Below are positions 388 through 37,898 of a stretch of 37,898 nucleotides of DNA, in pieces. The number at the start of each line of letters is the position of its first letter. Position 1 is the stretch's first letter. A program made the position numbers and the translations under genes. Where the stretch lies: positions 1 to 37,898 of IMG/VR virus record IMGVR_UViG_3300030098_004252, one strand, 5' to 3'. The notes below the pieces were generated by a model. That model searched no databases. It had not been told where the DNA came from and worked only from the letters and a program-made list of their open reading frames with translations. This DNA is from a virus.

Positions 388-394
388 CGCTCAC

Positions 395-2062: not shown

Positions 2063-2069
2063 CTGTCAC

Positions 2070-2582: not shown

Positions 2583-2594
2583 TATGATTGTCTC

Positions 2595-9608: not shown

Positions 9609-9617
9609 TAGCGACTC

Positions 9618-10301: not shown

Positions 10302-12229
10302 TAGAGAATACCTCCGCCCTGCCTAATGTTAGACATGTTGCCTTCTGACCTTCGCGTCATCATGCGCTCTGCGCTGGCCATGCTTCCAATAGCCTGCTGC
10401 TTAGCTGCCTGCTCTTGGGCGATCTGAGCCTGTGCGCCCTGGGATGCAGGAGATGCTATCGTCCTCGCAATTGAGGATGGGTCAGCCTGGGGAGAGGTGC
10501 GTGGGAAGATCTTCTGGGACGCCAAAGCCCCCTCATGCTCTTCCTGAGGAGCCTCGGCTGTCGCGATAGATACCAGTACATCCCGCAAGTATTCCTGGGT
10601 CGGCGGAGGCAACTCATAGAACTCTGAGGTTCTGACAAATTCCCCAAAGACCTTCTTAAAGGTATCGATATCATCCGATGCGAAGATCTCAATCTGACCA
10701 CCCATCTTAACAGCATCGAGCATGTCTTGAGCATGGCCGATAGCCTGTGCCCTCTCAGACACGTTCTTGTTCCCAGTTCGGAAGCTAAGCTCTTGGAGGG
10801 CGTCTTCCTTCTCAATAAGGCCCATCTCAAGAAGCTGCATAACCTTGGCATCTCTATCCTGAGCCTCGTCCCTAAATAGGGAGCCGGCCTGGAGGAAGAT
10901 CTCCGGCTTGTCCACAATGTCTGTGTTCTTCAAGGCCTTAAAGGTCACCTGTCCGTACTGGTCCAGAATGCGAATCATCCTGTCCTCGGAGTAGTGCTTC
11001 TTCATCAACTCAAGAACAAGCCGGCCCAACTCAGTCACACCGCGCTCAATGGCCTCTTGTGTGATTTGAAGCTGGCTAGTGTCCTTCTCTGAAAGGGTTG
11101 TCATCGCCTTGCCAGAGGTGACTCCAACCGCTCTCTTGCCAAGAGTCACAGAGTGAATACCAACGGTGTCCATCATCTCTGACTGAATGCGTGAGATGTT
11201 ATCCAGCATATAGCCAGGCAGTGGGGCTGCTGCAATTTGCTGAGGTGCCCCGCCTGCGGGGTTGTAGTAGATCTTCTCGCCGGGACGCGAGGTCAGCGCC
11301 TGAGAGCTAACGCCAGCGGTCTTGGGGATTAACCACTTGGGATTACCCATAAGCTCAACGTTGTGGATAACCTGGGAGCGTGCCCGGTTGTAAAGCAACT
11401 GCAAGTCCAACGCAGGGGCAACCATAGAGAGGCCCCAGAGACGACGAGGAACCTCAGTGTATCTGTAGATCTGAACAGGGAACGTCTTGGTAGTCCACTT
11501 GCCCTTATGCAGATAAGTGCTGCCAGTAACGATAGCATGGCGACCGTCTCGCCAATACACCTCAATAACCTCAACCCTATCCTTGGGAGGCTCGTTGGTG
11601 GTGCCAGAACTAATAAGACCGTAGTTCTCAGAGTCCGGCAAAGAAGACCGCTCAATCTCCTCTGCGTGCTCAGGGTAGACCTTCTTCAACTCCCGCTTGG
11701 TAGAGTACGACCGAAGGCCAACCCATCGGCTATCGTTAGGATGGATTACGCCCTTCTCAAAGAAGATGTCGTACGCCCCGTACACCTCAGTAACGATGTT
11801 GCTTTCATCGGAGGAGAAGTATGTGTGGGTGGCCGCAGTCCCACAGGTAAGAAGCCACTTAATAAGCTTCTCAATCTCATGCTTCATGTCAGCCCGGTGC
11901 CAGTAATACTGCAAGGCCATCTCGCTAGCCTTGGCCTTAAACACATCCTCAGCTGAAGGCGAGGCCGGCATTACGGCTATCGACGGGTACGACAAAGCAA
12001 GCCGAGACAAAACGTTCCGGTAAATGTTGAGCAGCAGGTTAACCGTAACGCGAGACTGCGACTCAGCGTTCATGCGCGAGGTGACAAACTGGCTGATGTT
12101 CTTGTCGTAAGACAGCCACTGCCTGCCCTCTACGAACTTCAGGGATAAATCCCAAAGGCGGCGCTCGGAGGTCTTCTCGCTCTTAGACTCGGTGATAATG
12201 CCACCGATGTTTTGGGGGAAGCCTTCCAT
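10301..12229 (-). CDS. Portal protein (642 aa)
   Basis: I chose ATG at 12229 (MEGFPQNIGG) because it lies two bases after the stop of the upstream gene; an earlier in-frame start would overlap that gene by 46 bases. The protein is rich in charged helices, with an N-terminal region about binding and entering the head-tail channel and segments such as RNVLSRLALSYPSIAVMPA and LTCGTAATHTYF typical of podovirus portals. The C-terminal region (about residues 560-642) is Gln/Ala/Met-rich and helical, like a barrel/crown. It would form the 12-subunit ring used for packaging and ejection. Unusually, it lies downstream of the capsid gene. Length fits the larger P22-like portals. Confidence 0.75.
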   Translation of the reverse strand: MEGFPQNIGGIITESKSEKTSERRLWDLSLKFVEGRQWLSYDKNISQFVTSRMNAESQSRVTVNLLLNIYRNVLSRLALSYPSIAVMPASPSAEDVFKAKASEMALQYYWHRADMKHEIEKLIKWLLTCGTAATHTYFSSDESNIVTEVYGAYDIFFEKGVIHPNDSRWVGLRSYSTKRELKKVYPEHAEEIERSSLPDSENYGLISSGTTNEPPKDRVEVIEVYWRDGRHAIVTGSTYLHKGKWTTKTFPVQIYRYTEVPRRLWGLSMVAPALDLQLLYNRARSQVIHNVELMGNPKWLIPKTAGVSSQALTSRPGEKIYYNPAGGAPQQIAAAPLPGYMLDNISRIQSEMMDTVGIHSVTLGKRAVGVTSGKAMTTLSEKDTSQLQITQEAIERGVTELGRLVLELMKKHYSEDRMIRILDQYGQVTFKALKNTDIVDKPEIFLQAGSLFRDEAQDRDAKVMQLLEMGLIEKEDALQELSFRTGNKNVSERAQAIGHAQDMLDAVKMGGQIEIFASDDIDTFKKVFGEFVRTSEFYELPPPTQEYLRDVLVSIATAEAPQEEHEGALASQKIFPRTSPQADPSSIARTIASPASQGAQAQIAQEQAAKQQAIGSMASAERMMTRRSEGNMSNIRQGGGIL

Positions 12230-14131: not shown

Positions 14132-14992
14132 CTAAATAAACGGGTTGCTACTCTTCATGAACTCCCTAAGCATCTCCGAAGCGTCTTTAACGCTAGAGGG
14201 TTGCCTTACCTCATTAGCAGCAGAGTCGACAGTTGCTCCGGCCCTCGCCGGTCGTCTTACCTCTTCTGCTTGGGGCTCTGCCGATTGCTGCTGGGCCTCT
14301 GGCATTCCGTTGTTCGCGATATAGTCGGCCAGTGCGGCCTCCTCTACCTGGGCAACAAAAGCCGAGTACCCCTCAGCAACCTCCAAGGCTGACACATTAG
14401 GGTCATTCGCTACAGCCTGTAGCATCACCTGGCGCGGAACCCCTGGGAAGACCTGGCTCGCTTCTGCGATCTCATGCTCCAGATCATACCGGGCCATCTG
14501 CACCTCTTGCTGGTACATGCGGTCCTCCATGGTCTGGAACTGCTGAGCGTAGGCCTTAGAGGCTGGGTCGTCGTCGTTGATCACCGACTGCAACCACGCC
14601 TCGTTTTCATCCTGGGGCTCTTGCTTGGCGGGTGCCACTGGAGCTTGTTGGCGCGCATCAAACTGTTCTTGAAGCTGCTGCATTTGCTCACGCATATGAG
14701 AGATCTCATCTTTGTAAGCATTGCGAGCCTCAAGGACTTGCTTGAACCGGTCATACGGGACACGGTGGCCCGGAGTGGAGTCATCGTCCTCGGCAGGGCT
14801 GTCATCAGCCTCGAACTCTTGTTCTCCTTGCGCCTCTACTTCTCCAGCCTCCGCTTCTTGGTTAACGTCCTCAGCGGGCTCGGACGAATCTTGCTGGGCC
14901 TCTAACTCAGGCTGCTGCTCTTCAGTGAAATCCTCCTCACTAGCGAGAAAGTCACCTAGCGCACCAACCTCTTCATCATTAAGAAAACCCAT
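14132..14992 (-). CDS. Scaffold protein (286 aa)
   Basis: A 286-residue, strongly acidic, Glu/Gln/Ala-rich protein immediately upstream of the capsid gene. Residues about 10-80 are dominated by E, D, A and S. A long coiled-coil-like helix around 85-125 (FKQVLEARNAYKDEISHMRE) follows, and a short basic/hydrophobic C-terminus (MLREFMKSSNPFI) could bind coat protein. This composition, length and synteny are standard for podovirus scaffolds, which direct procapsid assembly and then leave or are degraded. A ribosome site (AAGGAGAG) lies before the ATG. The 34-base gap before it shows no obvious promoter. Confidence 0.8.
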   Translation of the reverse strand: MGFLNDEEVGALGDFLASEEDFTEEQQPELEAQQDSSEPAEDVNQEAEAGEVEAQGEQEFEADDSPAEDDDSTPGHRVPYDRFKQVLEARNAYKDEISHMREQMQQLQEQFDARQQAPVAPAKQEPQDENEAWLQSVINDDDPASKAYAQQFQTMEDRMYQQEVQMARYDLEHEIAEASQVFPGVPRQVMLQAVANDPNVSALEVAEGYSAFVAQVEEAALADYIANNGMPEAQQQSAEPQAEEVRRPARAGATVDSAANEVRQPSSVKDASEMLREFMKSSNPFI

Positions 14993-15026: not shown

Positions 15027-16616
15027 TTACGACCCTGATGTATCCATCAGAGAAGGCATTGACAGCGGAACTCCCCACCTATCGGTGTTCTTTTTGGCGT
15101 CCGCTTTCTTGAAGACCTTGCCAGTGTTTAGTTCAAACTGCAACATCTCGCGCAGATTACTGGGCCTTGTAGACTGAACGTCATCTTTGACTTGCTCGAT
15201 TTGATCGAGCCCCATAAGCGTCAGCGCATAGGCGAAGATCATATCATCGTGCTTCTTAGGAGCGGCCTCTGGCTTGCCTCTGTCGTTGTAGATAAACGTA
15301 TTCATCTCAAACTTCATTCTATCATCAGTAGGCACAAGCCACTTCTTTGATATGTATTCATGAAGCCTCGACAGCATCACCGGTCTTGTAGAGACGTTGG
15401 TGGAGAACCCAACTTTCTCAACCCACCTCTCGGCCATCTTGTCGTATTGGGTGCGCTTGAAGATATAGGCGTAACTATTTCCCATAAGGTGCTCAAGAAC
15501 GGAGAGCCCGTATGAGTTGGACTCCACCACCACTAGGGCGTTGTACTTAATAGCCTCCGTCCTTACCCGCTCAGAGAACGCATGAGGCGGCATCCTCTCG
15601 TAGAAGGTTGAGCAAACGGTTGGGGCCTTCTTGTCTGTTACGTCCATAACGCAGAACGACGAGAAGTCTCCAGATGGAGAGCCAGACGCAACGTCAACAC
15701 CGAGAGAGTACACACGGAACTTAGATGGCTTAATGTAGTTCCTGTATCCGCGCTCTAGTTGAACATGTGGATACACCGTGTCGAAGAAGGTCTCGCCGCT
15801 AGATATGAAGGCCTGCTCTGCTGTGGCTGGGTACTCTTGGAGGAACGTATTCCAGTTCCCCATACACTTAGACATGTAAGTGTTATGCGCCCAGTTGGCC
15901 TGCTTTTCTGTTAGTCCGAACTCTTTGGCGTATTCTTTAATCTTAGGGTTTAGTCCACCCTTAGGTTTGCTGGCCACATAGTCCGAGTCATCCATCCAGG
16001 GGAAGAAAAGCTTTGCAAACCCGCTCTGCTCTCGCCATAGCCTGTGGGCATCGTTCATGCCGTTGGCTGTGGTCTCCAGGTATATCTCGGCGTTTGGGCC
16101 GGCTGTCTGGAACGCAGAGGCAATGGCTCTCTCTACATCTCCCCAGAACGCGAACTCTGAGCAGTGGAGGGCTTGGTAGGTCGTTCCACGGAAGTTCTCA
16201 GAGTTTGCCGTAGTAACGCGGATATATCCACCGTGGAAGAAAGATAGCTCGCGAACGTTAGCCTTCTCAGTAGGGAACTTGAGAAACGGAGGAAGGTTTT
16301 CATAGAACCTCTTGTATATCTCAAATATCGCCTGTGCAGACTCTGTCCTGTGGGCAAGAACACCCACCCTGAAGTTGGGAGTGAACAGCGCTCGCCAGAA
16401 GAACCTGGCGGCGATCATGGTCGTCATTCCAAGCTGGCGTGCTTTGAGAATGTAGGTCCATGGGTTCTCCTCCACATGCGAGACAAACTTCTCTTGAGCC
16501 TCGTTCATGGTGAAGGGGATCATGCGGCCCTTCTTGTCCACGATGCTCAGGTGCTGGCAAAAATAGCGGAAGTCTGTGGCGCATCTGGATATCTCCTGCT
16601 CTAGCCTTTGGTCCAC
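15027..16616 (-). CDS. terL: Terminase large subunit (ATPase + nuclease, 529 aa)
   Basis: The DNA-packaging motor that translocates and cuts phage DNA. The deviant Walker A motif KARQLGMTT is at residues 58-66. The Walker B segment ALHCSEFAFW is at 149-158, with the catalytic Glu near 154. The nuclease domain has acidic residues in GVDVASG (D308), GDFSSF (D317), VVVESNSYG (E365) and HDDMIFAYA (456-464), the RNase H-like metal cluster of this family. The length is usual. The start is GTG, overlapping the small-terminase stop (TAGTG), with GAGGAAG upstream. Headful versus site-specific cutting cannot be settled from this sequence alone. Confidence 0.9.
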   Translation of the reverse strand: MDQRLEQEISRCATDFRYFCQHLSIVDKKGRMIPFTMNEAQEKFVSHVEENPWTYILKARQLGMTTMIAARFFWRALFTPNFRVGVLAHRTESAQAIFEIYKRFYENLPPFLKFPTEKANVRELSFFHGGYIRVTTANSENFRGTTYQALHCSEFAFWGDVERAIASAFQTAGPNAEIYLETTANGMNDAHRLWREQSGFAKLFFPWMDDSDYVASKPKGGLNPKIKEYAKEFGLTEKQANWAHNTYMSKCMGNWNTFLQEYPATAEQAFISSGETFFDTVYPHVQLERGYRNYIKPSKFRVYSLGVDVASGSPSGDFSSFCVMDVTDKKAPTVCSTFYERMPPHAFSERVRTEAIKYNALVVVESNSYGLSVLEHLMGNSYAYIFKRTQYDKMAERWVEKVGFSTNVSTRPVMLSRLHEYISKKWLVPTDDRMKFEMNTFIYNDRGKPEAAPKKHDDMIFAYALTLMGLDQIEQVKDDVQSTRPSNLREMLQFELNTGKVFKKADAKKNTDRWGVPLSMPSLMDTSGS

Positions 16617-17149
16617 TATTCTTCCTCTTTTGGCGGCTCCAGTACAGCGTTAAGGACCGGCAGAATGTCTTTTGGGTCCAACACCGTCTTCTGTAGTGCC
16701 AGCACCTTGGCGTGGGTTAGCTGAACGTCAGCCTCTGCCTTCTCGATAGCCAGGCGGTCAAGCTCGTCTTTGACCTCTCGCTGCATCCTTGGGTTCTTCC
16801 TGAAGTCGTCCCTGGTTCTCTCAAGCAGCCACGCTGCCGCACGCCAGTCGTCTTGTGCCTGGAACCTAATGCAGTCGACCAGTCCCGTGGTTGCCTCGTC
16901 GTATGCAATCTCGAAGTCATGCACAAACTGCCTCATGAGAGGGTGTGCATCCGGCGCTCGTCCTGCTGCCAGCCACGCGCGAAGGGTGTGCTCATGTATG
17001 CCGAGCCTGTTGGCTACGATCTTCCTCGTGTAGCCGTTCTTGATTCCCTCGCATATACGCTCTGCGATTAGCGTATTAAACTTGGGAAACCTTTCGACTC
17101 TCAACAAAGGCTTTTTGGTGGCTGCGTCGGCTTCTGTCGCTTGTTCCAT
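16616..17149 (-). CDS. terS: Terminase small subunit (177 aa)
   Basis: A 177-residue protein directly upstream of the large terminase. A helix-turn-helix is visible at about residues 42-62 (RKIVANRLGIHEHTLRAWL), followed by a helical region (about 85-150) that would form the oligomer ring, as in small terminases that recognise the packaging start. The C-terminus is acidic (PPKEEE). The start ATG lies inside the end of the preceding gene (74-base overlap), with AAGG about 10 bases upstream. The next in-frame ATG would remove the HTH, so the longer form is preferred. Confidence 0.8.
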   Translation of the reverse strand: MEQATEADAATKKPLLRVERFPKFNTLIAERICEGIKNGYTRKIVANRLGIHEHTLRAWLAAGRAPDAHPLMRQFVHDFEIAYDEATTGLVDCIRFQAQDDWRAAAWLLERTRDDFRKNPRMQREVKDELDRLAIEKAEADVQLTHAKVLALQKTVLDPKDILPVLNAVLEPPKEEE

Positions 17150-17576
17150 CGCACATGACCTTATGCATGGTGGTTAGGAAGTCCACGATGTCCTGACCGA
17201 ACACGCCAAGATCCATATCGCCAATCTTATCTCCGTCAGGAGCGTTAGACTCCAGGCGACCTTGCATGTTCCTAAGAATGGGAATGCACATCTTGTGCTT
17301 TTTATGCATTCCGATCTGACCAGCGGACAACGCGGCCTCAAGACCCTTGATCTCACTAAGCGCAATGGCGCGAGTAGCAAGGGCGTTTAGATCAGGGTCC
17401 ATGTCGCCAGGGTTAAAGAACAGAACATCAAGGCTCTCCTTAATGGACTTAATCCCCTCGGCGATAAGGCCCTCTACGATTTCAAACTGGGAGATCGGAA
17501 CAACATCAATGTCTAGATCTTCCGGCCTCTCAATCCGTGTAGCCTTCTTAGACAAGATAAACCTTCTGTCGCTCAA
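17076..17576 (-). CDS. Unknown protein upstream of terS (166 aa, TTG start)
   Basis: A 166-residue protein with an acidic N-terminal half (ERPEDLDIDVVPISQF, residues about 16-31), a central helical region and a basic C-terminal tail (SDRSRRSHQKAFVESRK). The frame opens only just upstream of a TTG codon at 17576, with no clear ribosome site; an internal ATG near residue 59 is the alternative. It overlaps the genes on both sides (29 bases with the Lys-rich gene, 74 with the terminase). I do not recognise a family. Position suggests a packaging or head accessory, or a late regulator. Confidence 0.55.
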   Translation of the reverse strand: MSDRRFILSKKATRIERPEDLDIDVVPISQFEIVEGLIAEGIKSIKESLDVLFFNPGDMDPDLNALATRAIALSEIKGLEAALSAGQIGMHKKHKMCIPILRNMQGRLESNAPDGDKIGDMDLGVFGQDIVDFLTTMHKVMCDGTSDRSRRSHQKAFVESRKVSQV

Positions 17577-17832
17577 GAAGTTGCTTAACCCCGAACTGAC
17601 CCATCACTCGCTGCTGCTGATAAACATGCAGAAGAGAAAGGGTAACAACCGTCTCAGCGTCGAGTTCCATAGAATGAGCCAAGGACTCAATCATGCCAGA
17701 GACGCCAGACGGGACGTCCTTGGCTGTCAACTTCACTAGGTTCTTTGGACGGCCTACCGGCGATGCCCCTGTCTTTTTGGTGGCCTTCTTTGCCGGAGCC
17801 TTCTTCGGTGCACTCTTCTTGGTCGTCGCCAT
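17548..17832 (-). CDS. Protein with H1-like basic N-terminal tail (94 aa)
   Basis: A 94-residue protein. The first 25 residues are an Ala/Lys/Pro tail (KKSAPKKAPAKKATKKTG) like a linker-histone tail. The rest (about 28-94) is a compact, mixed helical region with EIV-like and Q-rich segments. Such tails bind DNA without sequence specificity. The ATG shares its A with the transglycosylase stop (TAATG), with GGGGAG upstream. The C-terminal part may be a small DNA-binding or dimerising domain. It is one of six basic-tailed proteins in this phage. Confidence 0.6.
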   Translation of the reverse strand: MATTKKSAPKKAPAKKATKKTGASPVGRPKNLVKLTAKDVPSGVSGMIESLAHSMELDAETVVTLSLLHVYQQQRVMGQFGVKQLLERQKVYLV

Positions 17833-27869: not shown

Positions 27870-27938
27870 GGGCCCCGATACATTTACTAGCCCCCCTCGT
27901 GGTCGGGGTAACTAGGAATGTATCGGGGCCCTTTTTTT
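27870..27938 (+). terminator. Strong terminator between the convergent blocks
   Basis: GGGCCCCGATACATT (27870-27884) and AATGTATCGGGGCCC (27917-27931) are a perfect 15-base-pair stem followed by seven T on the plus strand. Inside the 32-base loop the CTAG and CCCC/GGGG blocks can pair again, making a long nested hairpin. On the minus strand no U-run follows, so it ends mainly the early transcripts. Confidence 0.9.
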
Positions 27939-28299
27939 ATCTGGCGACAGACAAGGTGAACGCGACTATCCCGGTAGTGACTACGCCGATGGTGAACCCT
28001 ACATAAGGGTCATGCCACCAAGGCTCAGGCTCTAACGCGTTGGATAGTAATCGTTCTAACTCTTGTGACTGACGGCCTAAGGCAGACAGGGACTTGGTAT
28101 AAGCCTGGCCCTCCGCCTGTTTGGCCTCTATGCAGTGGTCGAGATCTGCCCTACACAGGGGCATTTCTACGGCCTTCACGCGCATACACGCGCGCGCCTC
28201 AAGCACGGGTATTAGTAGCCCGCTGCAATGCGCTGTGGACCCCTTCTCGATGGGCTCAGCGCGCTCGCACGGTGCGCCTAACATAAGGCCGGCTAACAT
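27937..28299 (-). CDS. Spanin-like (u-spanin candidate) membrane protein (120 aa)
   Basis: A 120-residue protein with a hydrophobic N-terminus (MLAGLMLGAPC), a Cys-rich and then helical periplasmic-type middle (HCSGLLIP; Cys at about 25, 38, 49 and 56), and a clear C-terminal transmembrane helix (about residues 98-117). An N-terminal lipid-anchor-like region plus C-terminal membrane helix is the layout of one-component (u-)spanins, which fuse inner and outer membranes at lysis. The Cys at 11 does not perfectly match a lipobox. A C-terminal WWHDPYVGF before the helix is a pattern I know from aquatic phage proteins of this kind. Last gene of the leftward block. Confidence 0.5.
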   Translation of the reverse strand: MLAGLMLGAPCERAEPIEKGSTAHCSGLLIPVLEARACMRVKAVEMPLCRADLDHCIEAKQAEGQAYTKSLSALGRQSQELERLLSNALEPEPWWHDPYVGFTIGVVTTGIVAFTLSVAR

Positions 28300-28307
28300 G
28301 ATGGCCG

Positions 28308-28466
28308 CTAGAGTGATGGCTTCTTCCTCTCTAGCTGGTCCTTAGCCGCCTGCTGCCTAGCCTTAGCCGGGAGCTTGCCCTTAGGGGTGTGCTCCTCCCA
28401 GCGCTTAGCCATGGCGGGATACTTCTTATGCATCCACCTTCTTTGTGCTTCGGACTTGAAAGGCAT
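28308..28466 (-). CDS. Small basic protein, SEAQRRW-type (52 aa)
   Basis: A short gene read from ATG at 28466, sharing its A with the previous stop (TAATG). The product begins MPFKSEAQRRWMHKKYPAMA and continues KRWEEHTPKGKLP, then basic helix to PSL. This is a pattern I know as a small protein common in diverse phages (KSEAQRRY...HPxxAKRW...TPKGK form). Function unknown; the charge suggests DNA or protein contact. End coordinate is fixed by the TAG at 28308-28310. Confidence 0.7.
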   Translation of the reverse strand: MPFKSEAQRRWMHKKYPAMAKRWEEHTPKGKLPAKARQQAAKDQLERKKPSL

Positions 28467-28696
28467 TACTTCTTCATGGCCTTAAGCATGGACTCGGCTG
28501 CCCTTGCACGCCTGTTGGCTGCCGCGCATGGGTCTTTCTTCTTCGGCCTTATCCGCTCTATGCCACGGATAAGGTTGTAAGCCCCTCGCTTTGCCTTGCT
28601 AACCTTCGGCGGCTTTTTAGTAAGTCCTGCGCTCGGCTCCCCATAAAGCGTGCGATTGGGGCGCGGATCAAGGTCGCCTTTAGGGTTGTCACTCAT
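28466..28696 (-). CDS. Small basic protein of the Lys/Arg-rich cluster (76 aa)
   Basis: A 76-residue protein, Lys/Arg/Pro-rich, with a motif RARAAESML near residues 63-71 that also occurs, with one change, in the upstream 93-residue gene (RARAAEAML). The two may be diverged copies or share an interacting surface. No family recognised. It sits in a run of basic-protein genes at the end of the leftward operon. Confidence 0.6.
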   Translation of the reverse strand: MSDNPKGDLDPRPNRTLYGEPSAGLTKKPPKVSKAKRGAYNLIRGIERIRPKKKDPCAAANRRARAAESMLKAMKK

Positions 28697-28697
28697 G

Positions 28698-28979
28698 CTA
28701 CTTCTTCCCTAACGCTGCCCTCTTCTTCCCCATCTCCCGCCTAATAGGATGGTTAACAGGGAGCTTCTTCCAGTCCTTGGTGTCCATCTTACCCAAAAAG
28801 CGCTTCTTCCAGTCCTTCTTCTTAGCGGGAGTGTCCTCAAGCATAGCCTCTGCCGCCCTAGCTCGCTTGTACTCGTGATTCCTGATGTCGCGTTGCTTTT
28901 GGTCCATTGGCTTGATGCGAGGGTTCTCCCCCATAGCCTCTCTTACTTTGCGCCTGGCGTATCTAATAGGGTATTTCAT
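28698..28979 (-). CDS. Small basic protein of the Lys/Arg-rich cluster (93 aa)
   Basis: A 93-residue protein with about 31 Lys/Arg and 12 Asp/Glu by my count, strongly positive. The motif RARAAEAML lies near residues 39-47, then PAKKKDWKKRF and DTKDWKKLP suggest two short repeated DWKK units. AGGAG precedes the ATG. No enzyme motif. Likely a nucleic-acid-binding or virion-packaged basic protein (inference from charge). Confidence 0.6.
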   Translation of the reverse strand: MKYPIRYARRKVREAMGENPRIKPMDQKQRDIRNHEYKRARAAEAMLEDTPAKKKDWKKRFLGKMDTKDWKKLPVNHPIRREMGKKRAALGKK

Positions 28980-28988
28980 CTAAATCTC

Positions 28989-29687
28989 CTACTTCTGTCC
29001 GGTAGCCCGCTCGAATCGAGCGAGGTGTTTGCGAAGGTTAACTTGGCGACCTTGCGTGTTCCTAAGAGTGGGCCTCTTGGTCTTGGCCTTCTTGCCACGG
29101 TTCTGCTTGTACCACTCTCGGAATAGCTGACGAATGCCACTGTTCTTATCGAGCGTGCGCCAGTTCTTAGGAAGAGGAGGGGCCTTGGTTCCCTTAAGGT
29201 CCAGCACCCCTTCTCGTGCAGCCTTAGCATCAGCAAGGTAGCGAGTCTCTTTAAGCTTTGACTGGAACTTGGCCTCTTGCTTCTTGGCCTTTTTATCAAA
29301 CTCAAACACCTCGTGCGGTGTAGGGCCTTGGGCAAACTTCTCATCCCCTGCCTTCTGCTTAGCGTACTCCTTCTTTACGTTGAAGGTAGACTGGCTAGCG
29401 CCTCCGCCAAACTTCATAAGGTCTTTGCCGCTAGCGCCTCCGCTGTGGGGGCTGGGCTTGTCCGCCTGCTCGGAGTGGTACTTGGCCAGGGCCTTCTTGT
29501 GCTTGGCCTCTTCGCCTTCTCCCATCCCGCTACCGGCAGGTGCCGGAGCAAACGTATGGGGCTTGATCTTAGAGCCCTTGGCCTTCTCGGCCTTTACTGC
29601 TGCGAGGCGAGCCTTGGCGGCAGCGGCCCGGGCTTTCTTCATCCCGGTAAATGTATAGGCGAACTTCTTGTTACCAACCTTTGGCAT
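28989..29687 (-). CDS. Lys/Ala-rich basic protein, MPKVGNKKF-type N-terminus (232 aa)
   Basis: A 232-residue protein. The N-terminus, MPKVGNKKFAYTFTGMKKA, is a form I have seen at the start of small basic marine-phage proteins. A long Ala/Lys helix follows (about 15-40), then a Gly/Ser/Pro-rich middle (about 45-105), and a C-terminal region with FREWYKQNR near 189-197 followed by a very basic tail (GKKAKTKRPTLRN). A close match to that motif (FRKWYTANR) occurs in the upstream 418-residue protein, so the two share a module. Probable nucleic-acid or virion-DNA-binding protein. Confidence 0.6.
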   Translation of the reverse strand: MPKVGNKKFAYTFTGMKKARAAAAKARLAAVKAEKAKGSKIKPHTFAPAPAGSGMGEGEEAKHKKALAKYHSEQADKPSPHSGGASGKDLMKFGGGASQSTFNVKKEYAKQKAGDEKFAQGPTPHEVFEFDKKAKKQEAKFQSKLKETRYLADAKAAREGVLDLKGTKAPPLPKNWRTLDKNSGIRQLFREWYKQNRGKKAKTKRPTLRNTQGRQVNLRKHLARFERATGQK

Positions 29688-29689
29688 TG

Positions 29690-30946
29690 CTATCTCCTGA
29701 ATCCTGGTAGGGCAGACATGGTAGCCCGCATGCTCTTCTTCCTTTTCGCTTCTCGGTCAGCCTTCATCTTAGCCAGCCGTGCTTGTGCATCAGCCTTGCG
29801 CTTCTTAATGGCTTCCATCTTGCTCTTAGACTCTGCTACTTGTGCGGCCTTGGCCTTGTCATCTCGGTACTTCTTGTTCTGAGCAGCGGCCTGGGACTTA
29901 GCGTCGGCAACCATCTGGCGCATGCGAGCCTTGTGCTTGGCGTGCTTGGCCAGTGTTTCGGCGCGACCCTTGCGCCACTTAGCCATGTCCCGCTTGCCGC
30001 GCTCAACCTCAGCAAGGTTCTCGTTGATGACGTTTAGATCCTCCATGCGCTCAGCCTTAAGCCACGACTTGGGGATGCGCTGACCTGTCTTGCGCTTCTG
30101 TGCGATGCGGGCCTTTAGGCCGGTAGGATCTGCCACTTTCTTGGGGGCAGCCTTAGCCGGCGCTGTCTTGACAGGCGCTGCCTTTGTGAGGACAACCTTC
30201 TTCTTCTTGGGCTTGGCCCGGTTAGCGGTGTACCACTTACGGAACTTAGACAGCTTGGCCTTGTATTCAGGGTCACTCTTCTTGGGTAGCTCAGGCCGGG
30301 GCGCTCCCTTAAGTGACGCCGCCTTAGCCTTGGCTTGAGGCTTAGGCTGGGCCTTGGCCGGTCTCTTTTTCTTGCTTGAGTAGGTGGCCAAGGCGCTGGC
30401 CTCTCTCGAAAATGGGGGAGGGTCCACGTCGCCAAACCTTCTCTCGCTAGCAGCCAGCGACTCGATGGAGGTAAATGGCTTGGCCTTGGCAGGGGCCTTT
30501 GGCTTAGCTTTGGCAGGAGCCTTTGCCTTAACGGGCTCGGCCTTAGCTGGTGCCTTGGCTGGCTTGGGGATTCTTTTTCTCGCAGGCTTGTCGTCCTTAA
30601 GCGCCTTCTTCGCAAGCCTAATGTCCCCAAGCACGGCATCGGCCAGGGGAACCCCTGTGACTCTTTTCGCTCTTTCTTTGGTCGCCTCCGCAAGGGCCCC
30701 CACCCCTTTCTTTAGCGCTCTCTTCTGCTCTTCGGCGGAGCCTTTTTTGTCGACGCTGAACCGGACAGCATCCCCGTCGGGGCCGAGCCCCCCGCCAGGG
30801 ACCGCGCGCCTAATGGCCCTTGCGGGCATCAGAAGGGCTCTACTCAGGGCGTTAATAAAGCCCTTGTCCTCTTCCTCGATTGCCCTCTTGGCGCTCTTGG
30901 CCCTTTGTCTTAGTCTAATGATCTCTCGCTGTGCCTTGCTTGCCAT
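29690..30946 (-). CDS. Histone H1-like Lys/Ala/Pro-rich basic protein (418 aa)
   Basis: A 418-residue, very basic protein. Residues about 123-160 consist of repeated APAKAK-type units, like linker-histone tails. Further Lys-rich blocks lie near 192-215 and 244-275, and a long Lys/Arg/Ala helix spans about 315-408. FRKWYTANR (235-243) matches a motif in the next gene. Such proteins bind and condense DNA. In a late phage operon it could be packaged with the genome, coat DNA, or act on the host nucleoid. A ribosome site (AGGAG) precedes the ATG. Repeats this low in complexity can also arise by slippage, so the domain borders are uncertain. Confidence 0.65.
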   Translation of the reverse strand: MASKAQREIIRLRQRAKSAKRAIEEEDKGFINALSRALLMPARAIRRAVPGGGLGPDGDAVRFSVDKKGSAEEQKRALKKGVGALAEATKERAKRVTGVPLADAVLGDIRLAKKALKDDKPARKRIPKPAKAPAKAEPVKAKAPAKAKPKAPAKAKPFTSIESLAASERRFGDVDPPPFSREASALATYSSKKKRPAKAQPKPQAKAKAASLKGAPRPELPKKSDPEYKAKLSKFRKWYTANRAKPKKKKVVLTKAAPVKTAPAKAAPKKVADPTGLKARIAQKRKTGQRIPKSWLKAERMEDLNVINENLAEVERGKRDMAKWRKGRAETLAKHAKHKARMRQMVADAKSQAAAQNKKYRDDKAKAAQVAESKSKMEAIKKRKADAQARLAKMKADREAKRKKSMRATMSALPGFRR

Positions 30947-30947
30947 C

Positions 30948-31247
30948 TTAAAACTCCTGGTTCCAAGCGGCGGCTACGTCTGCCGCTGATGTTGTGTTAG
31001 CGATGTTGGCTGCTGCTAGCTCAAGCTCTTTCTTTCTTCTCATGCGCTTCTTGTCTAGCTCTAGTAGCTTAGCATCACGAAGGTCAATAGCCTGCTGCAT
31101 AACAGTAGAGGTGTGTCGCTTGAGCTTCTTAGTCTCAGCGATAGCCCTGGACCTGCGCTCAATCCTGTCCCTGTCCATGGTAGCTCTCTTCCACATAACA
31201 AAGAAGAACCCGCACACCGCCGTTAGGGCTGGGATTAAGTACTCCAT
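30948..31247 (-). CDS. Membrane-anchored coiled-coil protein, i-spanin-like (99 aa)
   Basis: A 99-residue protein with one N-terminal membrane segment (about residues 3-19) followed by a basic helix (KRATMDRDRIERRSRAI) and a long charged helix to the C-terminus. This N-terminal anchor plus periplasmic coiled coil is the layout of the inner-membrane spanin (Rz-like). No Rz1-like lipoprotein gene is seen embedded in it. The ATG overlaps the previous stop (TGATG). Could also be a holin regulator. Confidence 0.5.
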   Translation of the reverse strand: MEYLIPALTAVCGFFFVMWKRATMDRDRIERRSRAIAETKKLKRHTSTVMQQAIDLRDAKLLELDKKRMRRKKELELAAANIANTTSAADVAAAWNQEF

Positions 31248-31567
31248 CAGAAGTCTTCCTTTTCTTGCGTGGTTGCTTTGATCTTAGCTTTGATTTGAGA
31301 GGCCACGAAGGTTGTTAGAGATCCCGCCCCGATACCAATGATAGCACCCAGGTGGGTAAACCCTCCAGCACTGTACCCGAATATCCCTCCAAGAATTACG
31401 GATACAGCGCGGAGGAGAGGTCTCCTGATGCCTGCATCGGTTAGGATCCTCGGTTTCAATATAGCCTTAGCTGCCTGAGTTAGCGAGGACGAAGCTAGGG
31501 CGCAGATGCAGATGAGAATAACAAGCTTGTCCCATCCAAGACTATCAAGGGTAATTGGCTCACTCAT
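31247..31567 (-). CDS. Putative holin, three membrane segments (106 aa)
   Basis: A 106-residue protein with three hydrophobic segments at about residues 15-34, 52-70 and 72-90, separated by Gly-rich turns (GGIFGYSAGG, IGIGAGS), and a charged C-terminus (KIKATTQEKEDF). Size and topology fit class I holins, which make membrane holes at the time of lysis. It overlaps the neighbouring gene (ATGA) and lies in a group of membrane proteins near the endolysin, which supports the role. Confidence 0.55.
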   Translation of the reverse strand: MSEPITLDSLGWDKLVILICICALASSSLTQAAKAILKPRILTDAGIRRPLLRAVSVILGGIFGYSAGGFTHLGAIIGIGAGSLTTFVASQIKAKIKATTQEKEDF

Positions 31568-31770
31568 TTAGACCTTTCTTTTTTGCACAGCATTCTTAGC
31601 GCGGCCTCAGTCCTAGCAAGCTCCGACTTTGTAAACGGAGTGCTCTTGTTAAAGTCCACGCCCGCAATGCGGAACGCCTTTTTGTTTTGAGAGACAGCCT
31701 TGTTTATCTGGGACTGGCTTGGCTTTTTTGAATAGTACCGGCCAAAACCAGGGGCGTCGCATGACTTCAT
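31564..31770 (-). CDS. Small basic protein in the lysis cassette (68 aa)
   Basis: A 68-residue basic protein without membrane segment. It reads like a small helical protein (INKAVSQNKKAFRIAGVDF; SELARTEAALRMLCKKE). It overlaps both neighbours by ATGA. No family recognised; could regulate lysis timing or be unrelated to it. Confidence 0.55.
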   Translation of the reverse strand: MKSCDAPGFGRYYSKKPSQSQINKAVSQNKKAFRIAGVDFNKSTPFTKSELARTEAALRMLCKKERSK

Positions 31771-32051
31771 CGCGCCTCTCCCGTCTTAGTCTTAGCCGAC
31801 ACTCTGGTTCCTTGGCGGACCATGCGCTCTAGCTTCTCGTCTTGCAGCCTCTCCTTAGTGATGCGCAGGAGTTCCTCAACATGGGCAGCGATAGTATCCA
31901 GCACAGAGTCTAGCTCTTTCTGGTCAGCCTCTCGCTTCTCCTCTAGCCTAGCCATCCTCTTATCGCTCTGCATGTGCAGATAGATAAGGAAGATACAAAA
32001 GATACCAAGTATCCCCTGCTCTGCCAGAGTGCCTAGGAACTCTTCGCCCAC
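31767..32051 (-). CDS. UviB/BhlA-like holin candidate (94 aa, GTG start)
   Basis: A 94-residue protein with an N-terminal single membrane segment (about residues 11-27, EQGILGIFCIFLIYL) followed by a long charged coiled coil (about 30-75). This layout, EQG...F..L..Y plus a K/E-rich helix, is what I know of the BhlA/UviB holin-like family. Starts with GTG overlapping the previous stop (TAGTG). With the three-segment protein nearby it could give a two-holin or holin/antiholin set. Confidence 0.55.
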   Translation of the reverse strand: MGEEFLGTLAEQGILGIFCIFLIYLHMQSDKRMARLEEKREADQKELDSVLDTIAAHVEELLRITKERLQDEKLERMVRQGTRVSAKTKTGEAR

Positions 32052-32634: not shown

Positions 32635-34193
32635 GGCGGTGAATCATCCTTAACGTTAGACGCTATCATGTTAACGGCGGTACCATTGTCTGCTTCAGAG
32701 CCGTAGTCGACAAGTGTTGGGAAGCTGTTGTCTCCAGCCCCAAACCGGTAGAGGTGCTGGGGAGGGAAGGCTAACGTTCGAGGGTCAGGCATGTTGCCAG
32801 AGCCATACAATGCGGTGACGTCAGATGCGCTCAACTCTCTAGTCCACATACTTACCTGGGAGATGTACCCAGAAAAGCTCTGGGAGATCCTAGAGCCACC
32901 GTCATAACGCAAGGTTCCAATAGTAAAGTCCTTCACGTTTAGGGCGCTGCTTCTGGACTTGGAGTATCCCACGTAGTTGCCGTCAGCGTATAGCTTAACA
33001 GCCTGGGCGGTGCTGCCGCTTCCTACGTATGTAATAACAATGTGGTGCCACTCGCCATCTGTGGGGTCGATGCCGTTAGTGTCAGTGGAGTTAACCCAGA
33101 CCTCTTTGTTTGCGCCGTTGGGGCTCGTGTCGGCGTCGTCCTTGCCAAACAAGGCAACGTTGCTAGACGACCCCGCGCTGCCTATGGCCTTAAAGTACGC
33201 AGGGGTGCCACCAGAAGCGCCCTCAATTTGCAGGTAGTAGTACTCGTGGTTGTCGTTGTTAGAGAAAGACCAAAGCGCCTGCTGAGAGGTGGTGCTTGTC
33301 TTAAACCAGATAGCCACCGTCTGGGCGTCAGTCTGCCAGTCGAAGTTTCCTCCAGAGCTAGCTACCGCATCAGCCTCTATGTAGTCATCCACGCCGTCTA
33401 ACAGGTAGCTCATGCCTGCTGGCTGGTCGTCCACTATTGCACTCGGGTGCATGTTGTAGGCGGTGCCATCCCCTGTGCCGGACCCGTAGTTCTTTAGGGT
33501 CGGGAACAGCATGTCTCCGTTGCCAAACCTGTAATAGTAGCGGGGCGATGGAGCAAGGGCCGTCTCATCAACAGGCCGGTTGTTGTTGTAAACGGCTGCA
33601 ACTTGAGACGCAGTAAGCTCGGCCAAGTAAACACTGGCCTGATGAATAAAGCAGTTGGCAGCGTAGCCCGTTGCTCCGCTTACCCTTCTCGCGCCAAAAG
33701 AGAAGGTGTCAGAGTCGAGAGTCCCAGCGCCCACGACAACGGTAGAGGCCGGACCCCCGTCTATGTATATCTTGAGCGCGGTTGCTCCGTCGTATGTCAC
33801 GGTAATGTGGTGCCATGCGTTGTCGTCAAGGCCAGACCCAACGCTTACCCCGCCCGCTCCTCCAAAAAGGTAAACGCCCGCAGAGTTGCTCCATCCGTAC
33901 AGGTTAACCGCGCCCGCTGCGGTGATAGCCAGCCAGTACCTTGAGTTGCTAGCAGAGGTGTTGGTAAACGCCCAGATAGCAGACAGCGGGTCTGTTGTGG
34001 GGGGCACCTTTGTCCACACAGACACGGAGTGTGCGCTGTTGTTAAAGTCAACAGCACCGGATGCGCCGTTGGCCAACACGTAGTCATCAACTCCGTCAAA
34101 CTCGTACGACTTACCAGTAGGGCCTGCGTCAGGAGAGCTAGCCGCGCCTGTCTGAGTCCTCCCATAAGGAGACCATGGGGGAGTGCCAATCAT
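32631..34193 (-). CDS. Tandem LamG/concanavalin-like receptor-binding protein (520 aa)
   Basis: Two lectin-like jelly-roll domains of the LamG/ConA type in tandem. The first spans about residues 28-200 and the second about 270-450, each with FDGVDDY / LDGVDDY, a W-x-K strand (SVSVWTKV; TVAIWFKT) and WHHITVTYDG / WHHIVITYVG. Each repeat ends with a similar stretch (YRFGNGDMLFPTLKNYGS / YRFGAGDNSFPTLVDYGS). The protein ends just where a third repeat would begin. Such folds bind sugars, so this probably contacts the host surface. It overlaps the endolysin gene by ATGA. Confidence 0.7.
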   Translation of the reverse strand: MIGTPPWSPYGRTQTGAASSPDAGPTGKSYEFDGVDDYVLANGASGAVDFNNSAHSVSVWTKVPPTTDPLSAIWAFTNTSASNSRYWLAITAAGAVNLYGWSNSAGVYLFGGAGGVSVGSGLDDNAWHHITVTYDGATALKIYIDGGPASTVVVGAGTLDSDTFSFGARRVSGATGYAANCFIHQASVYLAELTASQVAAVYNNNRPVDETALAPSPRYYYRFGNGDMLFPTLKNYGSGTGDGTAYNMHPSAIVDDQPAGMSYLLDGVDDYIEADAVASSGGNFDWQTDAQTVAIWFKTSTTSQQALWSFSNNDNHEYYYLQIEGASGGTPAYFKAIGSAGSSSNVALFGKDDADTSPNGANKEVWVNSTDTNGIDPTDGEWHHIVITYVGSGSTAQAVKLYADGNYVGYSKSRSSALNVKDFTIGTLRYDGGSRISQSFSGYISQVSMWTRELSASDVTALYGSGNMPDPRTLAFPPQHLYRFGAGDNSFPTLVDYGSEADNGTAVNMIASNVKDDSPP

Positions 34194-34828
34194 GCAACAT
34201 CCTTTTCATGCAGCCACTCCCAAAGGTCTGGATGCACAGGCATAAGCCCTGGCCTAAACGTGCCTATCATCCCCACCTCCTTCCTAGCCTTAGCAATGCC
34301 CGCCTTGGTTCGTGGCCCAATAATGCCATCAGAATCCCCAACATCAAAGCCCTTAGCATTAAGGGCCTCCTGAAGTAGCTTCATGCGCTGCTTCTTGGGC
34401 ACCTGAACATGAGGGCCATCCCTGAATGTGCGCCACAAGGCACCCGCCTCCAAGCCGCATTCTTTGGCCAGCTTGCCAAGGGGGATGTACCAGTTCTTAA
34501 GGCTGCCCTTCTGCATCAGCTGTAGGTCCAGCCCATGCGCCTTGGGCGGCCTGCCCTCGTATATCTCCTCATCATCATCGTCTGCGCCTGTGTACACCCA
34601 CAGGTCAGCGGCCAATGACGGGAAGTAGTTATGCAGGCTAAACCTTTTAACGCCATCGAGCTTGGACCTTCCGGCTGCATAGGCCGCCTTCTGGTTGCTA
34701 ATAGAGCGCTCAGCCCAGATCAAGCAAAGGGACGTGCATGGGTTTGCCCTTCTGTGAACTACTGCAAGATCGTTAACCCTGGCCCTTAGCCACGGGTGCA
34801 AGTCTTCAAGCCTCGGCGGTGTTCTCAT
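34190..34828 (-). CDS. M15-type peptidoglycan peptidase endolysin with C-terminal PG-binding domain (212 aa)
   Basis: The likely endolysin. N-terminal M15 (D-Ala-D-Ala / L-Ala-D-Glu peptidase) domain: YAAGRS at 50-55, the metal-binding SLHNYFPSLAADL with H66 and D75, and DGPHVQ with H140. These form the zinc site of the family. C-terminal region (about 150-188) reads LLQEALNAKGFDVGDSDGII and then GPRTKAGIAKA, the standard PG_binding_1 repeat. There is no signal peptide, so a holin is needed. Starts ATG at 34828 right after the large virion gene's stop. Confidence 0.8.
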   Translation of the reverse strand: MRTPPRLEDLHPWLRARVNDLAVVHRRANPCTSLCLIWAERSISNQKAAYAAGRSKLDGVKRFSLHNYFPSLAADLWVYTGADDDDEEIYEGRPPKAHGLDLQLMQKGSLKNWYIPLGKLAKECGLEAGALWRTFRDGPHVQVPKKQRMKLLQEALNAKGFDVGDSDGIIGPRTKAGIAKARKEVGMIGTFRPGLMPVHPDLWEWLHEKDVA

Positions 34829-34830
34829 GT

Positions 34831-37800
34831 CTACTTCACCCTGTACTTTGGTTTAATGTCTGAGTACCCAACGCCAAAGATGGCGGGGAGCACGAGAAGA
34901 GAATCCAGGCCTAGCTGAGATCCCTCGGACCCATATAGCTCTTGGACCATGTTGGGCAAAGGAACGAGCCCAGACTCAATCATGTCCTGGATAATGATGG
35001 GAGTAACAGACTGCGCTGCCGTCTGGGCAAGGTCAGTCTCTTCACCCTTAAAGTCCTTGCCGACAACCCGGTCCCAAACAAACGAAGCCTGGGGAGACAT
35101 CTTTTGTCTCATAAAGCGGCCCATCTCGTTGTACCTGGTGTAGCCAAAGTCCTTGTCTAGCTCTGCCTCATCTCCTGACAGGTTGTACCTCTTGCCAGTA
35201 TACAGCGTAGACAGAAGCCTAACCGGGCCCTGAAGACCGCCAAGCAGATCGAGCCTGGTGTTAGTGCCTGGCGTCTTAAGCTTTAGCCAGTCACTTCCAG
35301 AGCTCATGTCCGTAGAGAATAGCTCCTTATTAAAGAAGGTATCCCCTGCAAGGTTGGCCAGACCAATAGCGGCAGCAACGCGGGTAGCAGCAAGCATCGC
35401 CTCGCGAACAACGATGTCATCAACGTCGTCGATATATTCTGGGCTCCTAAGCTTACGGGCAGCCTTAAACAGCCGGCTATTCTTTCCAGCAGGGGACAGG
35501 CCAATGGCCGCGCCCTCGGCCACGGTAGCGGCAAAGTTCTTAGGGTCCAGCATCTTGGCCAGGACAGGAGACCTTAGGCCTTGTCTGTTCTTGAGCGCCT
35601 GAAAATCCACAAACGGAAACAGAACGTTCTGAAATCTGGACATCGCAAAGCGAGGGCTAAACATAATCATGTTAAGCGCGGAGTTCCAGAAGCCCGCCTT
35701 CTCCAGGTCCAGCAGGTTGCCCCGCCCATAAGTGATGTTTACTAGATCGCCAACGCTCTTGAAGCCGCTCTTGCCAAACCTGTCCATGTAGGCGTCGTAT
35801 GCCTTGGCCATCTCGTCGGCGTTTAGGTCTTCAAGCCCCAGGAGCCTAATGGCTGCGTTGCGCCTGTCATGGTTAAGCCCAATAGCAAACGTTCTCTCTG
35901 AGAACTCACCGTACTTCTTGAGGGCGCTTGCCGCCCCCTTGGCGGTAGTTAGGGCTGCCGCCCTGACCCGAGACCCCTTGTCTAGTAGCTGCGCGTCTAG
36001 GAGGTCGAGTAGCATCTGGGTTGTGTTCCCGATGAATAGCTCTTCCTTCCTGTCTAGTCCGGCTAGGCTGCCGGGCTTCTTGCCCATCATTACGTTCAGA
36101 GGATCTCTAACATCCCCGATGCCGGTGAAGCTAATGTCCATCTGTCGTAGGAACTTGTTGATGATCTGCTGGCGCGCAGCCTCTTCTTTGGAGATCCCCT
36201 CGTACATTCCAGTAAGCGCCTTGCGCTGACTGAGGAGGGCGTAGTCCCTAGAAGTGATAAGCTTATCCGGCATTGTAGGATGGCGAACCTTGCCAGCAAA
36301 CCCAGGCTTGGCCGACTTCATCATCGCCCTCCACCCCTCCATCTGGGCCATAGGGGCAACGATGTGACCCCAGATCCCCTGCCTTAGGCGAGAGCTTAGA
36401 TCTGCCCCGGCCATAATCATCTTAGGGATAGTGGCAAGCGCCATAAAGTTGTTCTTAACAAACCCGCTAGCGCCCGTCCCATAGTTGGGGTTAAGCCTAT
36501 TAATAACTCTTGATGCCAACTCAGAGTTGCGCTCAAGCGCGCCATACCTGGCCATAAGGTCGTCAACCTCTTTGCCGCTGGCGCTAACGGGGATGCCGGT
36601 CCCATCAATGATAAGGTCGCTAACGCCTTTCCCTTGTCTTTTTGCAGACGCAAGCAATACGTCGTTGATGCTGTTTTGAATCTCAACAGCGTTGGCAGCA
36701 AACCTGTTAAGAACGCTAACTTCATCCAGGCTAAGCTCCGCTCCCTTCTGGGCAGTGGCTCTCTTGATAAGGTTCTGGATGCCAGACGCCCCAGGGGCTC
36801 TCATGTTTTGAAGCTTAAGGCGATCTGACGCAACGGTGCCGGCCTTACTAAGAGCGGCAGACAGGTCGATAATCTCCTGGCCAAGAGAGTTGAGATTAGA
36901 AACAATTGCCTCTGGTATCTCCTGCCCTAGCTCCTCAAACGAGTCGGCTGCCTGCCTGTAAAGGGCCTCCTCTTCGGCCACCTTGGTGAGCCTGGCAAAC
37001 ACACCGGCTGTCTCCTCAAGCGTGCCCACCCTGTTTTCTTGCAGCATCTTCCTTGCCGTCTCTGCTGCACCCTCTGCCGTGTCCAAGCCCTTATCCATGG
37101 CGTCGATAAGAAGCTGCTCATGGGGAGGGGCATTAGGCCTTATTGCCTGTCCTCCTTTCCTGAGCCTGTCTATGTCCCTCTTTCTAAGAGACCTAACAGG
37201 GGCCCCGCTCCGCTCGCCCAAGAACCTGTCAGGGTCAGCCTGGCGGAGTGCCTCGTCAGCCTTAGCAGACTGAACCAGAGCCTCTGTCGCCACCCCGCTC
37301 CTGGCCTTCATTGCTTTAACAGCCGGCTCAGAAGCAACCACCGTCCCCTCTAATAGCTCGTCTAGCACCGACCCCTGTGGTGGCTCATCAAGCCCAGCCC
37401 TAGATGCTGCAACTGGATCGTCAGCGTGCTTTGCTTTGTTGGCGGTCTTAACTGCATCTACAGCGGCATCAGCCTCTTTGGCCTTACCCATGGCTCTGAG
37501 CTTTGTGATGCCCCTGGCAACACCAGGAAGGCCTATGACCTCAAGCCCGGCCTCAACAGGGTTGTACCTAGCGGTGCCAAGGGGGTCTGCTGCCAGGTCA
37601 GCATACCAGGCGGCTACCTCTCCTGGGAATGCACTGGCAAACGACGCCTCGTCTTGACGAGGAACTGCGCCTGCATCGGTCTTAACCATCTCCCGAGGAG
37701 GAGCGCCGTACTGCTCAGTAAGAACATCCTTACCAAACACCTCTCCGACATCTCTAAGGGCACTGGACCCAATGCCTTCTTCCTGTTGCCTGAGGAAGTC

Positions 37801-37898
37801 TCTTTTAGACGCCTCTCGCGCAGCAGCATCTAGAAACACAGACTGCGCGTCTTTGGGCTGACCTATGCCGGACGCCACAGGGGGAAGGAACCCAGCCG
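34831..37898 (-). CDS. Large ejection-type virion protein, main part (starts at 387 through the window junction)
   Basis: The larger part of the 1148-residue protein whose start is at 387. It is helical and Ala/Lys/Leu-rich in its first half. It has a conserved-looking core with FSPRFAMSRFQNVLFPF and a C-terminal block TRLDLLGGLQGPVRLL, then FGVGYSDIKPKY. These resemble the C-terminal regions of large phage ejection / polyvalent (LPD-type) proteins as I know them. It probably travels with the DNA into the cell. The frame is open to the window edge. A GTG near 37878 could be called a start, but the upstream part and its strong N-terminus argue against it. This is the last gene before the endolysin. 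Confidence 0.8.
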   Translation of the reverse strand, partial: AGFLPPVASGIGQPKDAQSVFLDAAAREASKRDFLRQQEEGIGSSALRDVGEVFGKDVLTEQYGAPPREMVKTDAGAVPRQDEASFASAFPGEVAAWYADLAADPLGTARYNPVEAGLEVIGLPGVARGITKLRAMGKAKEADAAVDAVKTANKAKHADDPVAASRAGLDEPPQGSVLDELLEGTVVASEPAVKAMKARSGVATEALVQSAKADEALRQADPDRFLGERSGAPVRSLRKRDIDRLRKGGQAIRPNAPPHEQLLIDAMDKGLDTAEGAAETARKMLQENRVGTLEETAGVFARLTKVAEEEALYRQAADSFEELGQEIPEAIVSNLNSLGQEIIDLSAALSKAGTVASDRLKLQNMRAPGASGIQNLIKRATAQKGAELSLDEVSVLNRFAANAVEIQNSINDVLLASAKRQGKGVSDLIIDGTGIPVSASGKEVDDLMARYGALERNSELASRVINRLNPNYGTGASGFVKNNFMALATIPKMIMAGADLSSRLRQGIWGHIVAPMAQMEGWRAMMKSAKPGFAGKVRHPTMPDKLITSRDYALLSQRKALTGMYEGISKEEAARQQIINKFLRQMDISFTGIGDVRDPLNVMMGKKPGSLAGLDRKEELFIGNTTQMLLDLLDAQLLDKGSRVRAAALTTAKGAASALKKYGEFSERTFAIGLNHDRRNAAIRLLGLEDLNADEMAKAYDAYMDRFGKSGFKSVGDLVNITYGRGNLLDLEKAGFWNSALNMIMFSPRFAMSRFQNVLFPFVDFQALKNRQGLRSPVLAKMLDPKNFAATVAEGAAIGLSPAGKNSRLFKAARKLRSPEYIDDVDDIVVREAMLAATRVAAAIGLANLAGDTFFNKELFSTDMSSGSDWLKLKTPGTNTRLDLLGGLQGPVRLLSTLYTGKRYNLSGDEAELDKDFGYTRYNEMGRFMRQKMSPQASFVWDRVVGKDFKGEETDLAQTAAQSVTPIIIQDMIESGLVPLPNMVQELYGSEGSQLGLDSLLVLPAIFGVGYSDIKPKYRVK

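Follow-up and report, generated by a model that had tools for sequence, protein, structure and literature searches.

We propose, from gene context, that a cluster of five genes for highly basic proteins in an uncultured podovirus-like phage encodes variable late cargo, which may be packaged and injected with the DNA and may work in the way that the T4 internal proteins do. We consider this quite possible, if short of probable, and favour it because the genes are late and fixed in place while their sequences change, their charge persists and they have links to head proteins, a pattern that matches T4. The phage is represented by a virus contig of 37,898 bases, the whole of which was analysed and is referred to here as the window.

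Results

A cluster of basic genes at the end of the late gene block

Identifiable genes of the window include those for portal, major capsid, terminase, an internal virion protein, a DnaB-type helicase, Erf and endolysin. A second contig, G015, spans both ends of the window (window positions 34365-37898, then 1-11533), which shows that they join and that little of the genome is missing. The segments 1-387 and 34831-37878 are probably a single gene split by the contig ends and an imperfect join; its counterpart in the relative G001 is one ORF of 1135 residues. On our reading, a leftward late block starts at the helicase gene (20022), takes in the terminase, capsid, portal, tail and virion genes, continues over the joined ends to the endolysin, the holin-like genes and the basic cluster, and stops at 27937, where convergent early genes abut it. 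Strand and spacing suggest that this block is one operon, and from their position the basic genes would be expressed late.

Five consecutive genes on the minus strand occupy 28308-30946 and encode proteins of 52, 76, 93, 232 and 418 residues. The coordinates, strand and lengths reported in the earlier note were correct, as was the dominance of Lys and Arg (K+R 24-33%, pI 10.4-10.9). The 52-residue protein (28308-28466, net charge +10; ORF, alignment and AF2) has a two-helix hairpin and a basic tail and belongs to the PFKSxxQ family, with its motif at 28368-28466. No family was assigned to the 76-residue protein (28466-28696, net +14; ORF and charge) or to the 93-residue protein (28698-28979, net +19; ORF, charge and family scans). 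The two largest proteins were defined by ORF and alignment: the 232-residue protein (28989-29687, net +35) carries an N-terminal tag, MPKVGNKKFAYT, at 29652-29687, and the 418-residue protein (29690-30946, net +75) contains an APAKAK repeat. Packing is tight, with the 76- and 52-residue genes overlapping by 1 base and the remaining gaps measuring 1, 9 and 2 bases. All five ORFs begin with ATG, and a codon-usage gene caller retained 5/5. Spurious or antisense ORFs were rejected, since both codon usage and the low w values given below argue against them.

We defined a basic gene as one whose product has at least 11% K and a net charge of at least +0.10 per residue. Seven of the 50 window genes are basic by this cut-off, and when the gene order is shuffled a run of at least five of them has P=0.00045, in a post hoc comparison. 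The charges of the five cluster proteins sum to +153, against -172 for the other 45 genes. Outside the cluster, the sole gene with equally dense charge encodes a 68-residue protein (31564-31770, minus strand, net +11; ORF and charge), which belongs to the same gene run and was absent from the earlier list.

All five proteins are very hydrophilic, and a comparison of charge with hydropathy places them far into the disordered range. The C-terminal RARAAExML of the 76-residue protein resembles the 93-residue protein (shuffle p 0.0145). A long C-terminal helix is predicted for the 418-residue protein; AF2 modelling from two sequences gave helices only (pTM 0.28), a fold that is not interpretable, and a PDB search with this protein returned no match.

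The 418-residue protein had been described as histone H1-like, with APAKAK repeats. In composition this holds, in that linker histone H1 and bacterial H1-like proteins have K/A/P-rich repeats of the same kind. The repeats are present, yet short, amounting to 2.3 copies of a 24-bp unit at 30476-30530. Simple repeat expansion was rejected, there being one 55-bp array only. Unlike H1, the window proteins have no H1 domain match, and searches of all five against Pfam, NCBIfam and PHROGs gave no linker-histone or other curated family match. Histone homology was therefore rejected, and the likeness is one of composition alone.

Such a composition would also suit proteins that bind nucleic acids late in the cell and stay unpackaged, coating replicated phage DNA or restructuring the host nucleoid in the manner of small nucleoid-associated proteins. 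Being rich in Lys, Arg and Ala, hydrophilic and disorder-prone, the five proteins fit this role as well as they fit cargo, and a K/A-tailed protein is encoded near terS in eight genomes. However, no known nucleoid-protein family was matched, and such binding leaves the PFKSxxQ-MuF fusion, the head-module locations and the rapid replacement beside conserved flanks, all described below, unexplained. We regard it as somewhat unlikely.

The protein near terS, listed in the earlier note as a sixth protein with an H1-like tail, is real and lies upstream of the small terminase gene. It has 94 residues (17548-17832, minus strand), with a tail of about 22 residues and a VGRPK..KLT domain, and one ORF of 166 residues lies between it and terS (16616-17149, PHROG_4102). 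Counterparts occur in seven relatives, and across the eight genomes the K/A tail is kept at about 22 to 33 residues.

The cluster sits inside a lysis cassette

The left boundary of the cluster is a 99-residue single-TM charged protein (30948-31247) and the right boundary, at the end of the late genes, a 120-residue spanin-like protein (27937-28299). Both are on the minus strand and were recognized by alignment, being 99% and 95% identical in G001, respectively. The same lysis cassette contains, also on the minus strand, the endolysin (34190-34828; PHROG_2649, E 8.5e-12) and a 94-residue holin-like, BhlA-like protein (31767-32051), whose match to PF10960 (E 0.0016, 18.8 bits) is below the curated cut-off of 22.6. 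The spanin-like protein has a signal-like N terminus, conserved cysteines and a C-terminal TM segment, and its lipobox fit is poor. A periplasmic cysteine was present in 0/58 surveyed u-spanins (PMC6139136), and in carrying cysteines the window protein is unlike them.

Because the cluster sits inside this cassette, its cationic products might serve lysis, with the outer membrane as their target or as regulators of holin and spanin, comparable to the phiKT disruptin; disruptins are cationic peptides encoded by phages (PMC12819732). In this group the slot lies between the holin-like and spanin-like genes, and the Streptomyces phage FlowerPower has a PFKSxxQ gene between its peptidase and holin genes. 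Yet the wall of the FlowerPower host has no outer membrane, and in other phages homologues of the same families are found in head modules, away from lysis genes. A disruptin of the phiKT type is an outer-membrane disruptor of a phage without spanins; the window already has its spanin-like gene, though one whose product has cysteines and a poor lipobox fit. Most slot proteins are also much longer than disruptin, and the marked hydrophilicity of the five proteins counts against lysis as well. We consider a lysis role improbable.

The slot is conserved in position and variable in content

We compared the slot in nine genomes, comprising the window and eight relatives. Its place is next to the lysis genes, where the late genes reach their 3' end. 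It follows a single-TM protein of 99-104 residues and is usually closed by the terminal Cys/TM protein, although no right boundary gene was seen in G008. Position is conserved and content is not. Each slot holds between one and five basic proteins, drawn from several unrelated families, and a comparable group occurs in the cultured phage HMO-2011, which gives no support to the earlier note's view that the number in the window is unusual. In HMO-2011, a SAR116 phage, the basic genes (L196:2524-6617) are gp63, gp67, gp68 and gp69, one of which is K/A-rich and H1-like in composition.

Beside the 418, 232, 93, 76 and 52 residues of the window, the slot proteins measure 410, 188 and 125 residues in G001, 922 (+85) and 49 in G005, 1038 (+91), 56 and 57 in G009, 366 and 46 in G006, 416 and 44 in G008, 102 and 66 in G003, 67 in L193, and 75 in G004. 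The 125-residue protein is DUF5872-like (E 1.6e-4, below the curated cut-off), and the 416-residue protein matches ART-PolyVal above the cut-off (E 2.3e-8). By eye, the small proteins of G005 and G009 (MPYKNxxQRxAM...) look to be of the same family as the 52-residue window protein. The site at 31564-31770 varies too, and in G001 holds a different protein of 288 residues. This protein (L158:8952-9818) has a C-terminal domain (...LPQRS.MPVFS...) in common with the 366-residue protein of G006 (L161:13564-14664) and the 416-residue protein of G008 (L166:12298-13548); the N termini of the three differ, that of the G008 protein being ART-PolyVal.

An insertion hotspot at the late-gene end, gathering small unrelated genes that have a common charge without a common function, could produce a pattern of this kind. 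The families are indeed unrelated, their content differs among relatives and the 31564-31770 site is variable. Against this, 9/9 slots hold at least one protein with a net charge of at least +0.14 per residue, conserved modules are under purifying selection, and in unrelated phages the vicinity of PFKSxxQ genes is enriched in basic genes. A hotspot therefore seems to us hardly a likely explanation.

Slot-boundary scans for further relatives yielded 4 and 3 loci only, and an endolysin scan yielded 9. INPHARED contained no close phage by DNA, its portal matches being only 22-29% identical, and gave nothing for the 232-residue protein or for the consensus of its N-terminal tag. The behaviour of the slot is described here from sequence; no paper describing it was found within partial coverage of the literature.

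Turnover proceeds around conserved modules

The closest relative is G001, with a portal dN of 0.001 and slot flanks that are 95-99% identical to those of the window. In the slot DNA, two short stretches align and no more. The 52-, 76- and 93-residue genes are replaced in G001 by the DUF5872-like protein. In the 418/410-residue pair, residues 205-300 are 96% identical with w=0.075 (module at 30047-30334, with FRKWYTANR at 30218-30244), and the N-terminal half is 27% identical. In the 232/188-residue pair, the first 12 residues are almost fully common and the C-terminal module (28992-29255, with FREWYKQNR at 29097-29123) is 90% identical (w=0.20), with 33% identity between them. The combination of low-w modules and divergent remainders indicates that selection at the protein level retains the modules and lets the rest be swapped.

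The modules of the 418- and 232-residue proteins are alike around LKG..P.LPK...FR.WY..NR.K.K (FRxWYxxNR; z 6.3, chosen post hoc), and the similarity of the whole proteins has p 0.02. The FRxWYxxNR motif was not found among the other fetched loci. We looked for the 418-residue protein in 18 related records and found it in 1; this protein and the full-length 232-residue type were seen only in the window and G001. The N-terminal tag of the 232-residue protein is more widespread and occurs also in L063 and L064. At L063:3483-4178 there is a run of three short basic genes, encoding a K-rich protein of 46 residues, a MPKVGNKKFPYT protein of 39 residues and a DUF6321-like protein of 89 residues, beside terminase-like genes.

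The PFKSxxQ family in other phages

Judged by alignment, the 52-residue protein adds a member to a widespread uncharacterized family. It has the two features that define PFKSxxQ proteins, a helical MPFKSxxQ motif at the N terminus and a basic tail after it, and P2, F3, S5, Q8 and A20 are invariant in an alignment of 49 sequences that includes it. A direct scan falls short of PHROG_1375, and the assignment to this PHROG comes from its alignment with sibling proteins that match it directly, L117 among them. AF2 predicts helices at residues 6-15 and 17-26 as a confident hairpin (block pLDDT 90-96), followed by a low-confidence basic tail. Sequence and fold searches of the PDB with this family gave nothing meaningful, and a BFVD search retrieved uncharacterized phage proteins only. 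Scanning viral contigs with the 52-residue protein gave 274 relatives, and a profile-derived scan of 84,980 bacterial and archaeal genomes gave 17 loci, nearly all in MAGs; because the two scans used different patterns, these counts are merely indicative of a viral family.

PFKSxxQ is also found on proteins of 1495, 670, 352 and 238 residues that have no known domains. In one minor-head protein of 1325 residues (L083:7851-11828), a PFVSEKQ motif is joined to InPase and MuF domains, with an intein-like segment as an interruption. Neighbours of PFKSxxQ genes with a PHROG match are for the most part terminase, tail, portal or virion proteins, with some ligase or primase. Basic genes account for 26/214 genes at a distance of up to two genes from PFKSxxQ, compared with 15/384 beyond a distance of four genes (odds ratio 3.4, p 3e-4, from 61 distinct loci that are not fully independent); an earlier p of 0.085 came from a simple gene caller that missed most PFKSxxQ genes. 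In 023Pt_psg01 the PFKSxxQ gene has portal-like genes on one side and head genes on the other, and in C75C1 it follows the major head gene. PHROG_7595 is located between portal/head-morphogenesis and major head genes in KBS-S-2A, between major head and decoration genes in S-CBS2, where it adjoins a weak PFKSxxQ match, and after the endolysin at the late-gene end in ICBM2. PHROG_7595, DUF5872 and DUF6321 are likewise small basic families; in relatives they are found in the same slot or an equivalent one and in one another's vicinity, although by sequence they are unrelated to the five window proteins. A literature search for the virion proteome of any phage carrying these families found none.

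Discussion

Among the three roles offered in the earlier note, packaging with the genome is the best supported, through gene context: late position, head-module homologues, the MuF fusion, ART-PolyVal and a turnover like that of T4 internal proteins. The T4 proteins are basic, packaged, injected, poorly conserved and swapped for other basic proteins in relatives (PMC9026906), and Ip1, Ip2 and Ip3 each inhibit a distinct type IV restriction enzyme (PMC12373910). Just as T4 has IPI, IPII and IPIII, the window has several small basic proteins that are replaced in close relatives; they too are basic and encoded with late genes, lateness being judged from position, and the slot proteins show the same low conservation and replacement. 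T4 packages the ADP-ribosyltransferase Alt as well, which is paralleled by the ART domain in the same slot of G008. In contrast to T4, the window has its slot beside lysis genes. On inspection, a T4-type capsid-targeting N terminus is absent from the five proteins, whose N termini differ from one another (MPFKSEAQ, MSDNPKGD, MKYPIRYA, MPKVGNKK and MASKAQRE), so we do not claim membership of the T4 internal proteins.

A further comparison is with polyvalent proteins, for which packaging and injection have been predicted (PMC5512222). As in those described by Iyer et al. (2017), the genes are late and the slot relatives show an association with MuF and ART domains; polyvalent proteins combine several disparate domains in one polypeptide, whereas the window proteins have no recognizable domain. 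Other points weigh against cargo: the ART-PolyVal and MuF links belong to other phages and not to the window, the slot here is inside the lysis cassette, and the neighbours of PFKSxxQ genes include some ligase or primase genes. With regard to scale, one copy of each protein supplies +153 against about 75,800 DNA phosphates, and bulk neutralization would thus take hundreds of sets per head.

If the five proteins are injected cargo, they would be made late and retained in the prohead, perhaps by charge through an acidic protein of 286 residues (14132-14992, minus strand, net -45; no PHROG match), which adjoins the major capsid gene and is scaffold-like by position and charge. They would stay bound to DNA within the capsid and enter the host along with the genome, where they might shield the incoming DNA or block a host defence. 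Their fast turnover would then be the mark of an arms race against the defences of the host, as it is in the T4 case.

On a broader and, in our estimate, unlikely reading, aquatic tailed phages share modular small basic families (PFKSxxQ, KVGxKKFxYT, PHROG_7595, DUF5872, DUF6321 and others) that would act as capsid-cargo tags and DNA-associated counter-defence, forming a widespread counterpart of the T4 internal proteins, with PFKSxxQ and FRxWYxxNR as packaging signals. Several uncharacterized families of small basic proteins recur in marine phages. Their clustering, their mutual replacement in one slot and one minor-head fusion reduce the problem to a single testable question, namely whether they are injected cargo. 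If they are, a level of counter-defence or early host takeover has been overlooked in many aquatic phages, and the short modules become candidates for packaging signals.
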